Source: Erythrobacter sp. 3-20A1M (GTDB lineage: Bacteria; Pseudomonadota; Alphaproteobacteria; Sphingomonadales; Sphingomonadaceae). From it: 64,000 bases of DNA. Location of the stretch: assembly GCF_018636735.1 (NCBI RefSeq), contig NZ_CP045200.1:186001-250000 (forward strand), written 5' to 3'. Below, in pieces: positions 7,096 through 43,941 of the stretch. Below the pieces are notes generated by a model. The model searched no databases and had not been told where the DNA came from. It saw nothing but the letters and a program-made list of their open reading frames with translations. The translations under genes and the position numbers were made by a program. The stretch's first letter is position 1. Each line of letters opens with the position of its first letter.

Positions 7096-7236
7096 TGTCC
7101 TACCCTTCCGCTTTCCACTATGCGGATCGGCGATGCAGTCTTGTGCTCCCTCCTTTTCAAACGCTCTCTTGCCGGGCCATTGGGCGGGTTCGATTTCCCG
7201 CCCAAGGCACTGTTCCATGTGTTCCATCGTGTAGGA
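7096..7236 (+). repeat. Dispersed 141-nt structured element, copy 1
   Basis: Copy 1 of an element also present at 21254-21394. It begins TGTCCTAC and ends GTGTAGGA, so its ends can pair (TCCTAC with GTAGGA). A strong hairpin, TTGGGCGGG/CCCGCCCAA with an 8-nt loop, lies at 7180-7205. It is followed by the block CACTGTTCCATGTGTTCC and onward to the end, which matches copy 2 at 28 of 29 positions. The middle is pyrimidine-rich, including CTCCCTCCTTTTC. The orientation given assumes transcription toward rpsA; the opposite strand would place it in the EAL-gene leader. Whether it is an RNA, a mobile miniature element or a protein-binding site is not decided. Confidence 0.6.
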
Positions 7237-7491: not shown

Positions 7492-9195
7492 ATGGCAACA
7501 GCAGCCAATCCCACTCGCGCCGATTTCGAGGCGCTGCTCAACGAACAGCTCGGCAATGTCGACGACGGCGGCTTCGAAGGCCGCGTGGTCAAGGGCACCG
7601 TCACCGCGATCGAGGCCGGCATGGCCGTGATCGACGTGGGCCTGAAGAGCGAAGGCCGCGTCGACCTCAAGGAATTCGAGCGTAACAAGGACGAGCACGG
7701 TCTGACGGTCGGCAGCGAAGTCGAAGTCTATGTCGACCGCGTCGAGAACGCCGACGGCGAAGCGATGCTGTCGCGCGACCGCGCCCGCCGCGAAGCCGCG
7801 TGGGACAAGCTGGAAAGCGAATTCGGCGAAGGCAAGCGCGTCGAAGGCCGCATCTTCGGCCGCGTCAAGGGCGGCTTCACCGTCGACCTCGACGGCGCCG
7901 TGGCCTTCCTCCCCGGCAGCCAGGTCGACATCCGCCCCGTGCGCGACGTCACCCCGCTGATGGATCAGCCGCAGCCGTTCCAGATCCTCAAGATGGATCG
8001 CCGCCGCGGCAACATCGTCGTGTCGCGCCGCGCCGTGCTGGAAGAGACGCGCGCCGAACAGCGCAGCGAGCTCATCAGCGATCTGGCCGAGGGCCAGGTG
8101 ATCGACGGCGTGGTCAAGAACATCACCGATTACGGCGCGTTCGTGGACCTGGGCGGCATCGACGGCCTGCTCCACGTCACCGACATGAGCTACAAGCGGA
8201 TCAACCACCCCAGCGAAGTGGTCGAGATCGGCCAGACCGCCACGGTGCAGATCATCCGCATCAATGCCGATACCCAGCGCATCAGCCTGGGCATGAAGCA
8301 GCTCGAGAGCGATCCGTGGGAAGGCGTCAGCCAGAAGTACCCGGTGGGCATGAAGCTGACCGGTACCGTCACCAACATCACCGAATACGGCGCCTTCGTG
8401 GAGCTGGAGCCGGGGATCGAGGGCCTGGTCCACGTTTCCGAAATGAGCTGGACCAAGAAGAACGTCCATCCGGGCAAGATCGTCTCGACCAGCCAGGAAG
8501 TCGAAGTGATGGTGCTGGAAGTCGATTCCGAGAAGCGCCGCATCTCGCTCGGCCTCAAGCAGGCCCAGCGCAATCCGTGGGAAGAGTTCGCCGAGGCGCA
8601 CCCGGTCGGCTCCAAGGTCGAGGGCGAAGTCAAGAACGCCACCGAGTTCGGCCTGTTCATCGGCCTGCCCGGCGACGTCGACGGCATGGTCCACATGTCC
8701 GACATCGCCTGGGGCATCTCGGGCGAGGACGCGCTGGCGCTGCACCGCAAGGGTGAAGAGGTCGAGGCCATCGTGCTCGACGTCGACATCGACAAGGAGC
8801 GCATCAGCCTCGGCATGAAGCAGCTCGAAAAGGGTGCACCGACCGAATCGGGCATGGAAGGCACGCTGCGCCGCGGCGAGACCGTGACCGTCACGGTTCT
8901 CGAAGTGCGCGACGGCGGACTGGAAGTGCAGGTCGGCGAAGACGGCGCGACCGGCTTCATCAAGCGTTCCGACCTCGGCCGCGACCGCGACGAACAGCGT
9001 CCCGATCGCTTCCAGACCGGCCAGAAGGTCGACGCCATGGTCACCGGGTTCGACCGCTCGAAGAAGCCGAACTTCTCGATCAAGGCCTACCAGATCGCCG
9101 AAGAGAAGCAGGCGGTGGCGCAGTTCGGTTCGTCCGACAGCGGCGCGTCGCTGGGCGACATCCTGGGCGAAGCGCTCAAGAAGGCCGACGACTAA
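7492..9195 (+). CDS. rpsA: 30S ribosomal protein S1
   Basis: S1 binds mRNA on the 30S subunit and helps initiation on weak or structured messages. From the ATG at 7492 (MATAANPTRADF) the product is 567 aa with six S1/OB repeats. The strongest matches to the S1 pattern are repeats 3-5: VVKNITDYGAFVDLGGIDGLLHVTDMS, TVTNITEYGAFVELEPGIEGLVHVSEMSW and the equivalent beginning VKNATEFGLFIGL. ERISLGMKQLE-like linkers recur between them. An ATG 27 nt upstream is in frame, but the conserved N-terminus favours 7492. Two strong hairpins follow the stop. Single-gene unit, as usual. Confidence 0.97.
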   Translation: MATAANPTRADFEALLNEQLGNVDDGGFEGRVVKGTVTAIEAGMAVIDVGLKSEGRVDLKEFERNKDEHGLTVGSEVEVYVDRVENADGEAMLSRDRARREAAWDKLESEFGEGKRVEGRIFGRVKGGFTVDLDGAVAFLPGSQVDIRPVRDVTPLMDQPQPFQILKMDRRRGNIVVSRRAVLEETRAEQRSELISDLAEGQVIDGVVKNITDYGAFVDLGGIDGLLHVTDMSYKRINHPSEVVEIGQTATVQIIRINADTQRISLGMKQLESDPWEGVSQKYPVGMKLTGTVTNITEYGAFVELEPGIEGLVHVSEMSWTKKNVHPGKIVSTSQEVEVMVLEVDSEKRRISLGLKQAQRNPWEEFAEAHPVGSKVEGEVKNATEFGLFIGLPGDVDGMVHMSDIAWGISGEDALALHRKGEEVEAIVLDVDIDKERISLGMKQLEKGAPTESGMEGTLRRGETVTVTVLEVRDGGLEVQVGEDGATGFIKRSDLGRDRDEQRPDRFQTGQKVDAMVTGFDRSKKPNFSIKAYQIAEEKQAVAQFGSSDSGASLGDILGEALKKADD

Positions 9196-9205
9196 GTAGA
9201 CCCCA

Positions 9206-9276
9206 AGGCGCCGTCCGTCGGCGCCTGAAGGTAACAAGAAAGGCCCGCCCTCCCTGCCCGGGAGCGGCGGGCCTTT
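9206..9276 (+). terminator. Tandem hairpins after rpsA
   Basis: Hairpin 1 is AGGCGCC/GGCGCCT (9206-9226). Hairpin 2 is AAAGGCCCGCC/GGCGGGCCTTT (9239-9276), followed by CCTACTCT rather than a pure T-run. Position 11 bp after the stop and the strength of hairpin 2 support termination of rpsA. Confidence 0.8.
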
Positions 9277-9309
9277 CCTACTCTACCCTCCGTTCCTACA
9301 TCGAAGGGT

Positions 9310-10071
9310 ATGGCCGACCTCCAAATTCACCAGTTCCCCTGCCTCTCCGACAATTACGGGTTCCTGCTCCACGATCCCGCCAGCGGAGAGACCGCGGCGA
9401 TCGATACGCCAGATGGCGCGGAATATCTGCATCAGGCCGAAAGCAAGGGCTGGCGCATCACGGAGATCTGGAACACGCACTGGCATCCCGACCACGCGGG
9501 CGGGAACAAGGCTATTGTGGAGGCGACCGGCGCGCGGGTGATCGCGCCCGCCGAGGTCGAGAAGATCTCTCCTATCGACAGCGTTGTGGGGCATGACGAC
9601 ACCGTGACCCTGGGATCGCACGAAGCGCGCGTGATCGACGTGTCCGGCCACACCAATGGCCACATCGCCTACCACCTTGCCGACGACGCCATCGCCTTCG
9701 TCGGCGACAGCGTCTTCGCGCTGGGCTGCGGGCGGATGTTCGAGGGCGAGCCGGAGCAGTTCTGGGCCGCGCTGGAACGGATCAAGGCCCTGCCGCCCGA
9801 AACCACGCTCTACTGCGCGCATGAATACACCGCGGCGAATGCGAAATTCGCGCGCCATGCCGATCCCGACAACCGGGCGCTGGCAGTCTATGCGGCGGAG
9901 GTCGATACGAAGCGGCTGCACGGCGAGCCGACCGTGCCCACCGTGCTGTCGCGCGAGCTAGCCACCAATCCCTTCCTGCGCGCCGACGAGCCCGCCATGC
10001 GGAAACGCTGGGGCGGGGAAACACCGGCGCAGACCTTTGCCGCGCTGAGGGCTGCCAAGGACGCGTTCTAG
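9310..10071 (+). CDS. gloB: Hydroxyacylglutathione hydrolase (glyoxalase II)
   Basis: Hydrolyses S-lactoylglutathione to lactate and glutathione, completing methylglyoxal detoxification. The 253-aa protein is a metallo-beta-lactamase fold with the binuclear metal motif THWHPDH at 56-62, GHTNGHIAYH, the bridging Asp in FVGDSVFALGCGRMFEG, and CAHEYTAANAKFA, all GloB-specific. The length is normal for the family. It stands alone between the rpsA terminator and a bidirectional terminator shared with the ATP synthase operon. Confidence 0.95.
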   Translation: MADLQIHQFPCLSDNYGFLLHDPASGETAAIDTPDGAEYLHQAESKGWRITEIWNTHWHPDHAGGNKAIVEATGARVIAPAEVEKISPIDSVVGHDDTVTLGSHEARVIDVSGHTNGHIAYHLADDAIAFVGDSVFALGCGRMFEGEPEQFWAALERIKALPPETTLYCAHEYTAANAKFARHADPDNRALAVYAAEVDTKRLHGEPTVPTVLSRELATNPFLRADEPAMRKRWGGETPAQTFAALRAAKDAF

Positions 10072-21253: not shown

Positions 21254-21394
21254 TGTCCTACAGCGCTCCCCACAGGCATAATCACGCCATGCCCGCAACC
21301 ATACCCTTCCCCATCCAGCCGTTCTTTGCCATGCGCACGCGGACCGGATTTTTCCGCCCCTAGGACACTGTTCCATGTGTTCCATCCTGTAGGA
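21254..21394 (+). repeat. Dispersed 141-nt structured element, copy 2
   Basis: Second copy of the element at 7096-7236, with the same end-to-end length. Its ends pair perfectly over 9 bp (GTCCTACAG at 21255-21263 with CTGTAGGAC at 21387-21395). A GCGGA/TCCGC stem (21339-21357) takes the place of the GC-rich stem of copy 1, preserving pairing with one changed pair. The 3' block from 21366 is nearly identical to copy 1, while the middle is conserved mainly as a pyrimidine-rich pattern (ACCCTTCCCC). It ends 14 nt before trpA, so it could be that gene's leader, an independent small RNA, or an inserted element. Confidence 0.6.
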
Positions 21395-21408: not shown

Positions 21409-22209
21409 ATGACCGCCCCGACACGCCTCGCCTCAGCCTTTGCCAAACCCCACCCCGCGCTCGTCTGCTTCCTCACGGCGGGCGATGGCGACACGGCGGC
21501 CAATCTCGATGCGCTGGTCGAGGGCGGCGCGGACGTGATCGAGCTAGGGATGCCCTTCACCGATCCGATGGCGGACGGCCCGGCGATCCAGCAGGCGAAC
21601 ATCCGCTCGCTCGGGCGTGGGACGACCACTGCGGACGTCCTGCGGATCGCGACCGCGTTCCGCCAGCGTCATGCGCAGGTGCCGCTGATCCTGATGGGCT
21701 ACGCCAACCCCATGATCCGGCGCGGACCGGAATGGTTCGCCTCCGCCGCGAAGGATGCGGGCGTCGACGGCGTGATCTGCGTCGACATCCCGCCGGAGGA
21801 GGACGATGCGCTCGGCCCCGCTCTGCGCGACACCGGGATCGCGCCGATCCGGCTCGCCACGCCGACCACGGACGACAAGCGCCTGCCCGCCGTGATCGAT
21901 GGCAGCGAGGGCTTCCTCTATTATGTCGCGGTCGCGGGTATTACGGGCATGCAGCAGGCGGCGATCGAATCGATTCGCTCCAATGTCGGCCGCATCAAGC
22001 GCGCGACCGACATCCCCGTCGCCGTGGGATTCGGTGTCAGGACACCCGAACAAGCTGCTGAAATCGCTGCGGTGGCCGATGGGGTGGTGGTCGGCTCCGC
22101 GCTGGTGGAACTGGTCGCCGAGCACGGTGCCGACGCGCCCGCCGCCATCCGCGAGCTGACCGCGGCGCTTGCCAAGGCGGTGCATTCGGCGGCAAAGGCG
22201 ACCCCATGA
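21409..22209 (+). CDS. trpA: Tryptophan synthase alpha chain
   Basis: Cleaves indole-3-glycerol phosphate and channels indole to TrpB. The 266-aa barrel has both catalytic acids, E45 (VIELGMPF) and D56 ([11 protein letters not shown]), equivalent to Glu49 and Asp60 of E. coli, plus [11 protein letters not shown] and [13 protein letters not shown] for phosphate binding. Its ATG lies 14 nt after the 141-nt element, and the only purine-rich stretch upstream, TAGGA, belongs to that element. The stop overlaps accD (ATGA). Confidence 0.97.
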
Positions 22210-43524: not shown

Positions 43525-43941
43525 CAGAAGGTCGCGCGCGACTTTCGCATTCGACGGGGGGCGCGGTGGAACGCGCGAAGCCAGCTTTCCTACCGGGGCG
43601 ACGGTGTGGCATTCCATGTACATGCCAGCTGCCAATTCGAACCGTGCCGATAACCGCTACCCACGCTCGGTGTATTGCGATCGCGTTGGCGATCAAGCAC
43701 CCTCGGCGGAAGGTCACACCCGGCTGCGCCTACCTATCCGTAATGCACTGACGCCGCTGCGCTTTTGTCTAAAGTCACACTTTTCAAACGGCGATTGTGC
43801 GTTCCATTGTCCTGTCCCCCATTCGGTTGGCGGTATCCGCCGCACGACGCGACGAGGCCATAGCGCGGATGCGCCTCCCGTTGGGGCGGGACGTCGGGGC
43901 CGCCGCGTGACATCCGCGTCGCTCGGAGATAGGCGGTAACG
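43525..43941. other. 417-bp non-coding region
   Basis: No protein gene with a ribosome site or recognisable family, no tRNA and no strong terminator. GC content dips near 43760-43810 (CTAAAGTCACACTTTTC), where a promoter for the antiporter could lie. GGAGATAGGCGG before 43942 is the antiporter's ribosome-binding region. Confidence 0.6.

Follow-up and report, generated by a model that had tools for sequence, protein, structure and literature searches.

Tandem-heptamer modules upstream of rpsA and trpA in Erythrobacter sp. 3-20A1M: members of a family of probable control elements in Erythrobacteraceae

The window analysed here is a stretch of 64,000 nucleotides (positions 186001-250000) of the 3,116,220-base genome of Erythrobacter sp. 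3-20A1M. It contains two 141-nt stretches, 7096-7236 (copy 1) and 21254-21394 (copy 2), which start with TGTCCTAC, end with TGTAGGA and are identical at 28 of their final 29 positions, just as the initial annotation had described them. The sequence CACTGTTCCATGTGTTCC, with up to three mismatches allowed, occurs in the window at these two sites alone, compared to an expectation of 0.01. Each copy consists of a promoter-like 5' box, a short upstream open reading frame (ORF) and a 3' block with two TGTTCCA heptamers, and is followed by a housekeeping gene (Table 1).

Table 1. Features of the two copies and the genes downstream of them (window coordinates)
Feature	Position	Strand	Basis
Copy 1, 5' box TGTCCTAC, -35-like	7096..7103	+	TCCTAC invariant in box-anchored alignment, n=110 copies
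Copy 1, leaderless-type upstream ORF, 33 codons, MQSCAPSF...CSMCSIV(stop)	7133..7234	+	
Copy 1, hairpin GGGCGGG/CCCGCCC, loop with TTT (7194-7196)	7182..7203	+	sequence
Copy 1, block: AGGCAC, then TGTTCCA (7211-7217) and TGTTCCA (7220-7226)	7205..7226	+	
Copy 1, 3' end TGTAGGA, frequent in TGTTCCA dialect	7230..7236	+	
rpsA (30S ribosomal protein S1), downstream of copy 1	7492..9195	+	NCBIfam
Copy 2, 5' box TGTCCTAC	21254..21261	+	invariant in the genus's orthologous trpA elements
Copy 2, -10-like CATAAT	21277..21282	+	ATAATC invariant, 8 orthologues
Copy 2, leaderless-type upstream ORF, 24 codons, MPATIPFPIQPFFAMR...	21289..21363	+	ATG invariant in genus
Copy 2, T-tract	21349..21353	+	sequence; anatomy alignment
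Copy 2, block GGACAC-TGTTCCA-TG-TGTTCCA (heptamers 21369-21375 and 21378-21384)	21363..21384	+	
Copy 2, 3' end TGTAGGA	21388..21394	+	
trpA, downstream of copy 2	21409..22209	+	element also precedes trpA in the genus's other genomes

The upstream ORF of copy 1 begins with an ATG located 37 nt from the first base of the box, and its frame stays open across the block, the prefix of which is a variant (GGCAC in place of GGACAC). The start of rpsA lies 281 nt past the first heptamer, and rpsA also neighbours the element in another genus (locus L032). In copy 2 the upstream ORF stops just 5' of the heptamers; the orthologous ORF crosses them in seven of ten genomes of the genus. A further reading frame crosses the copy 2 block, and its TGA overlaps the ATG of trpA.

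A genome-wide search with the 16-mer core TGTTCCATGTGTTCCA yields 22 matches at up to two mismatches, all of them with none or one, while the reversed control yields none. The 22 copies of TGTTCCA[T/A/G]GTGTTCCA are divided equally between the strands (11 each) and align as ...TTTTTyCGCCCCAGGACAC-TGTTCCA-NG-TGTTCCA-TCCTGTAGGA, and most of them carry T[GT]TCCTAC about 110 nt upstream. The strict pattern TGTTCCANGTGTTCCA is absent from the nine other genomes of the genus; with the two variable heptamer positions left open, each of the ten genomes contains 10-29 copies. Related elements are present in many genera of the Erythrobacteraceae, a group of mostly marine bacteria, including Qipengyuania, Erythrobacter, Pontixanthobacter and Aurantiacibacter. 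The initial annotation had proposed an intergenic family that it did not recognise and had recommended a search for further copies in this genome and its relatives; both the family and the additional copies are thus borne out. No paper containing the TGTTCCA or TGTGTCA block string was found in the literature, and keyword searches returned nothing relevant.

The genes 3' of the copies include rpsA, trpA, purA, queE, pdxH, pyrC, ruvA, ispG, lpd, moaC, folP and ppdK, as well as genes for an ArsC-family protein, an ammonia-lyase and an enoyl-CoA hydratase; chpT, an egtB-like gene and several fragment genes were assigned from matches under the curated cut-off. In several genera, a small holin-like gene (recognised by inspection, no NCBIfam match) ends with its stop codon shortly before the block, which occurs there in differing heptamer versions (loci L012, L036, L181, L188 and L249). 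One copy adjoins a yybP-ykoY manganese riboswitch (48.8 bits) at L009:1240-1347 on the minus strand.

The anatomy of the module emerges from an alignment of 110 boxed copies. The box has the consensus C-T-[GT]-TCCTAC-a and is -35-like; it is followed by a GCTAR-like motif about 21 nt past it, by either ATG or boxA about 35-37 nt past it, by a C-rich and G-poor interior that gives way to a G-rich stretch, by a T-tract at -18 to -14 relative to the heptamers and by CCC[A/T]GGACNN directly before the heptamers. The spacing of box, TA and ATG is fixed and suggests that T[GT]TCCTAC and the -10-like motif act as a promoter. From locus to locus, the columns of the interior are low in information, and the distance from box to heptamers ranges from 92 to 134 nt (n=110), so that the equal length of the two copies in the window, initially taken as meaningful, is a coincidence. 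The paired ends are not general: TGTAGGA is common among TGTTCCA copies and absent from TGTGTCA copies of the same genus. The block is always found on the sense strand of the predicted transcript, and it also occurs between cistrons and after stop codons. The box is missing in 79 of 255 copies, and only 22 of these 79 sit less than 60 nt past the stop codon of a gene.

Two versions of the module start are distinguished by what occupies the position at or near the predicted transcription start (+1). They exclude each other among copies with TGTGTCA heptamers, where 32 have an ATG without boxA (class A), 26 have boxA without an ATG (class B), nine have neither and none has both. In class B, boxA is similar to the one that a congener carries in its rrn leader (GGCTCTTTGAAATCGTTGG), a comparison based on the one genome among six searched in which a 16S gene was found, and the spacing from box to boxA is 35-37. 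The gene that follows a class A copy is co-oriented in 107 cases and otherwise placed in 20; the gene that follows a class B copy is convergent in 18 cases and co-oriented in eight.

In class A, the frame set by the ATG is open through the block in 115 of 127 copies, compared to 48 and 82 for the other two frames (p = 2e-15). In 34 of the 127 copies, the stop codon of the ORF and the predicted start of the following gene share exactly 4 nt, compared to two and three in the control frames (p = 3e-13). The copy statistics, these two tests included, pool related genomes, and hence comprise fewer independent events than copies. Overlaps were counted against gene starts predicted by a simple codon-usage script, with the other frames as control; a plain count of 'ATGA' was dropped, since NTGA is common by chance. 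Relative to the block, the ORFs are spread about evenly over the three frames, and the peptides differ between loci, which led us to reject a conserved peptide. An open, overlap-coupled ORF in any of three frames implies that translation matters while the peptide does not, and that the block is selected as nucleic acid. The original view that the copies share no coding potential therefore stands as regards a conserved peptide, but each of the two copies does possess a leaderless-type ORF with its ATG about 35-37 nt past the box, in a frame that differs between them relative to the block.

Nearly all copies within a genome share one version, or dialect, of the heptamer, and the two heptamers of a copy are identical in 137 of 145 cases. 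Between congeneric species, dialects switch at identical loci among TGTTCCA, TGTGTCA, TGTAACA, TGTGACA, TGGTCCA and the mixed TGTAACA/CGGTCCA. A search of 200 genomes of the family with the pattern GGACNNTGTNNCANNTGTNNCA delineated the dialects TC, GT, AA, CT and GA. One genome (G070) uses TGGTCCA-NN-TGGTCCA throughout, another (G137) has 17 copies of the asymmetric TGTAACA-NN-CGGTCCA, and a third (G011) contains five TGTAACA/CGGTCCA and five TGGTCCA/CGGTCCA copies, a mixture that looks like a transition. The spacer between heptamers is 2 or 3 nt; tandem arrays of three or four units instead of two occur at L108, L137, L328 and L230.

The trpA, chpT, moaC, pyrC and ruvA loci and the spacer before ppdK (pyruvate phosphate dikinase) are occupied across species and genera. 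In other genomes of the genus, the trpA element is found at the same place with TGTGTCA-GG-TGTGTCA instead, and this locus is known in three dialects altogether (TGTTCCA, TGTGTCA and TGTAACA/CGGTCCA). Similarly, chpT carries TGTTCCA, TGGTCCA or TGTAACA/CGGTCCA, moaC carries TGTGTCA, TGTTCCA or TGTAACA, and folP carries TGTTCCA or TGTAACA. The ppdK spacer, which is orthologous across genera and bounded on its other side by a gene read as glyS by inspection, holds at least eight block variants. That orthologous loci carry differing dialects is evidence for inheritance with regulon-wide recoding, and counts against a main origin by random insertion. A heptamer code that is uniform within a species and differs between close relatives suggests a putative, fast-evolving regulator.

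That the copies form one module family is strongly supported, and the modules are probably short transcribed control elements located before or between genes. As the best single explanation, to which we assign a probability of roughly 0.45, we propose that they are a vertically inherited regulatory boundary module of the Erythrobacteraceae, which gates the next gene through a putative dialect-specific factor and of which the window holds two of 22 copies. RNA polymerase would start at the T[GT]TCCTAC/-10 promoter. In class A, a ribosome on the leaderless upstream ORF would keep the transcript productive, mostly before a co-oriented gene whose start often overlaps the ORF stop; in class B, boxA would do so, mostly before a convergent gene. 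The transcript would next meet the T-tract and then the block GGACNN-heptamer-NN-heptamer, which a putative trans-acting factor of matching dialect may bind as DNA or as RNA. The bound factor would form a conditional gate on transcription, or on coupled translation, into the following gene, and a block between two cistrons or just past a stop codon would gate read-through at that site. The gate we infer would account for the sense-strand block, the ribosome or boxA from about +1, the T-tract 14-18 nt upstream, the genome-specific heptamers and the coupled starts; counting against it, 18 of the 26 class B copies have no co-oriented gene available to gate, and 79 of the 255 copies lack the box. 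A wider proposal, which we consider tentative and on the doubtful side, is that gating operates lineage-wide with one tandem heptamer code per genome, read by a rapidly diversifying putative trans factor and replaceable genome-wide between sister species. Such codes could coexist as parallel families or swap at a locus, and protection by ribosome or boxA would be a built-in requirement of the gate.

Two rivals to the gate remain live. A conventional repressor or activator might recognise the heptamers as sites in DNA, its motif having turned over between species, with ORF and boxA as incidental promoter parts. Tandem direct repeats, arrays of two to four units and a dialect switching similar to the motif turnover of regulons are all in keeping with an operator, as is the TTGACACGGTGTCAA block family, which has palindromic flanks, looks like the binding site of a dimer on DNA and can occupy the same locus. 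However, the sites lie about 75-100 nt past the predicted start in constant orientation to the transcript and coupled to an ORF or boxA, their repeat period of 9 bp (in some cases 10 bp) is atypical of a dimeric HTH protein, and no theme common to the downstream genes is evident; we regard an operator as unlikely, if the foremost of the alternatives. Only slightly behind, an endoribonuclease or RNA-binding protein could act on UGUNNCA-NN-UGUNNCA in the RNA and process or silence the leader, thereby setting the expression of the next cistron. The sense-strand block in any reading frame, its occurrence between cistrons and after stop codons, and the tolerance for spacers of 2 or 3 nt would suit such a site, yet most class A blocks lie within an ORF that is translated, so that the protein would have to compete with ribosomes, and neither a conserved RNA fold nor a small RNA with two complementary heptamers was found. 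Matches to the latter were at chance level, except in arrays of three to four tandem units, and the candidate was discarded; a MucR-like gene lies behind one of the chance matches.

The remaining explanations are much less probable. Class B copies, or perhaps all, might be small-RNA genes from which class A derived, with the block belonging to the 3' end: class B looks like untranslated transcripts that begin with boxA and end close to a hairpin and a T-tract, but the interiors vary between loci, class A overlaps the next start and many copies lack the box, which makes this reading improbable. The initial annotation had favoured a structured RNA family or a non-autonomous mobile element, and both fare worse still. 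A riboswitch or similar RNA conserved by its fold would suit the many intergenic copies in leaders, but is very improbable: Rfam scans of the window at gathering thresholds, of one element at E<=5 and of 20 loci at E<=1 matched nothing at the elements, RNAalifold predicted no pairs over 34 dialect-diverse blocks, and the interiors are non-homologous. The candidate helix between GGACNN and the second heptamer is perfect (GGACCG/CGGTCC) in the TGTAACA/CGGTCCA dialect and fails elsewhere, with 57.8% paired cells compared to 59.7% in shuffles and no double change; among orthologous trpA elements, one of 23 pairs shows a double change. Least credible is a MITE-like element with TGTCCTAC ends. The several intergenic copies and the TGTCCTAC and TGTAGGA ends in this genome invite the comparison, but these ends are not kept as inverted repeats in other dialects, the interiors are non-homologous, and different genera have the element at the same loci, with coordinated changes of the heptamers. 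Moreover, 2.9 million viral contigs contained two matches to the TC dialect and none to the GT dialect.

Termination may contribute in part of the family. In classes A and B, about 40% of the copies have a hairpin with a folding energy below -10 kcal/mol right next to the T-tract, versus 15% of shuffles, an excess that makes a terminator-like step plausible for part of the family. Intrinsic termination cannot explain everything, since not every copy has such a hairpin, and the GGGCGGG/CCCGCCC hairpin of copy 1 is not conserved family-wide. A role of the block as terminator of rRNA operons was rejected, as it is absent 3' of the rrn operon of a congener.

The modules share features with several known systems. 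Like the leader ORFs and attenuators of the trp/his type, they place a short ORF before a gene, with a stop that overlaps the next start as in translationally coupled leader ORFs, and part of the copies have a terminator-like hairpin with a T-tract. Unlike them, the module start is leaderless at +1, peptide and frame are not conserved, runs of regulatory codons are absent, and a genome-specific tandem heptamer block as well as an untranslated boxA version are added. The class B boxA, near the predicted start, recalls the rrn-type leaders that employ boxA and Nus factors for antitermination; the modules, in contrast, are short, intergenic and unrelated to rRNA, their boxA exchanges with an ATG, and a heptamer block follows. 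The alphaproteobacterial LexA operator, GTTC-N7-GTTC, is likewise a motif that turns over between clades, and in this genome the module also contains a direct repeat with GTTC. Yet the module spacing is GTTC-N5-GTTC, several other dialects lack GTTC, the genes are biosynthetic rather than SOS genes, and the sites lie within predicted transcripts. Finally, the tandem terminator boxes of RNA polymerase I (Sal boxes with TTF-I, or Reb1) resemble the module in having a T-rich element just 5' of tandem protein-binding boxes of species-specific sequence, whereas the modules are bacterial, dispersed at many genes and often located before a co-oriented gene, and their factor is putative.

The modules constitute an undescribed cis-regulatory set at housekeeping genes (purA, trpA, pyrC, ruvA, rpsA, chpT and others). 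Their natural variants allow one to ask whether ribosome and boxA can replace each other in protecting a transcript, and how a recognition code changes throughout a regulon between sister species. Since dialects changed naturally at fixed loci, the putative factor should be genetically tractable.

The box is more widespread than the TGTTCCA block. A survey of 1.26 Mb of this genome identified 51 T[GT]TCCTA[CA] boxes, 18 of them with an ATG at +33 to +36, and only six of these 18 lead to TGTTCCA blocks. At 9274-9312 of the window, a box (TTTCCTAC) with an ATG about 36 nt on precedes an ordinary gene (MADLQIHQFPCLSDNYG..., ORF 9310-10071), and thus the leaderless promoter type is not confined to the elements. 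Other conserved 3' blocks behind the box are AAAGTTTTNCAAA...CGGTGTTCCA, with one copy upstream of folP, and AAAGTCACAC...GCGTTCCA. The TGTCANNTTCGTCA family, which has a palindromic flank and 3-12 copies in several genomes, can replace the heptamer block in the spacer before ppdK. Block families that are interchangeable at a locus suggest a general task, for instance gating or insulation, and not one tied to a particular gene. Members of the TGTCANNTTCGTCA family were seen at L365, L366, L367, L375 and L379 (about 1500), in some cases preceded by the same box and boxA. The window itself holds a further box-plus-ATG element at 43586-43830, with the 3' block GGAAGGTCACAC ... AAAGTCACACTTTTCAAA ... 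GCGTTCCA and a second copy elsewhere in the genome.
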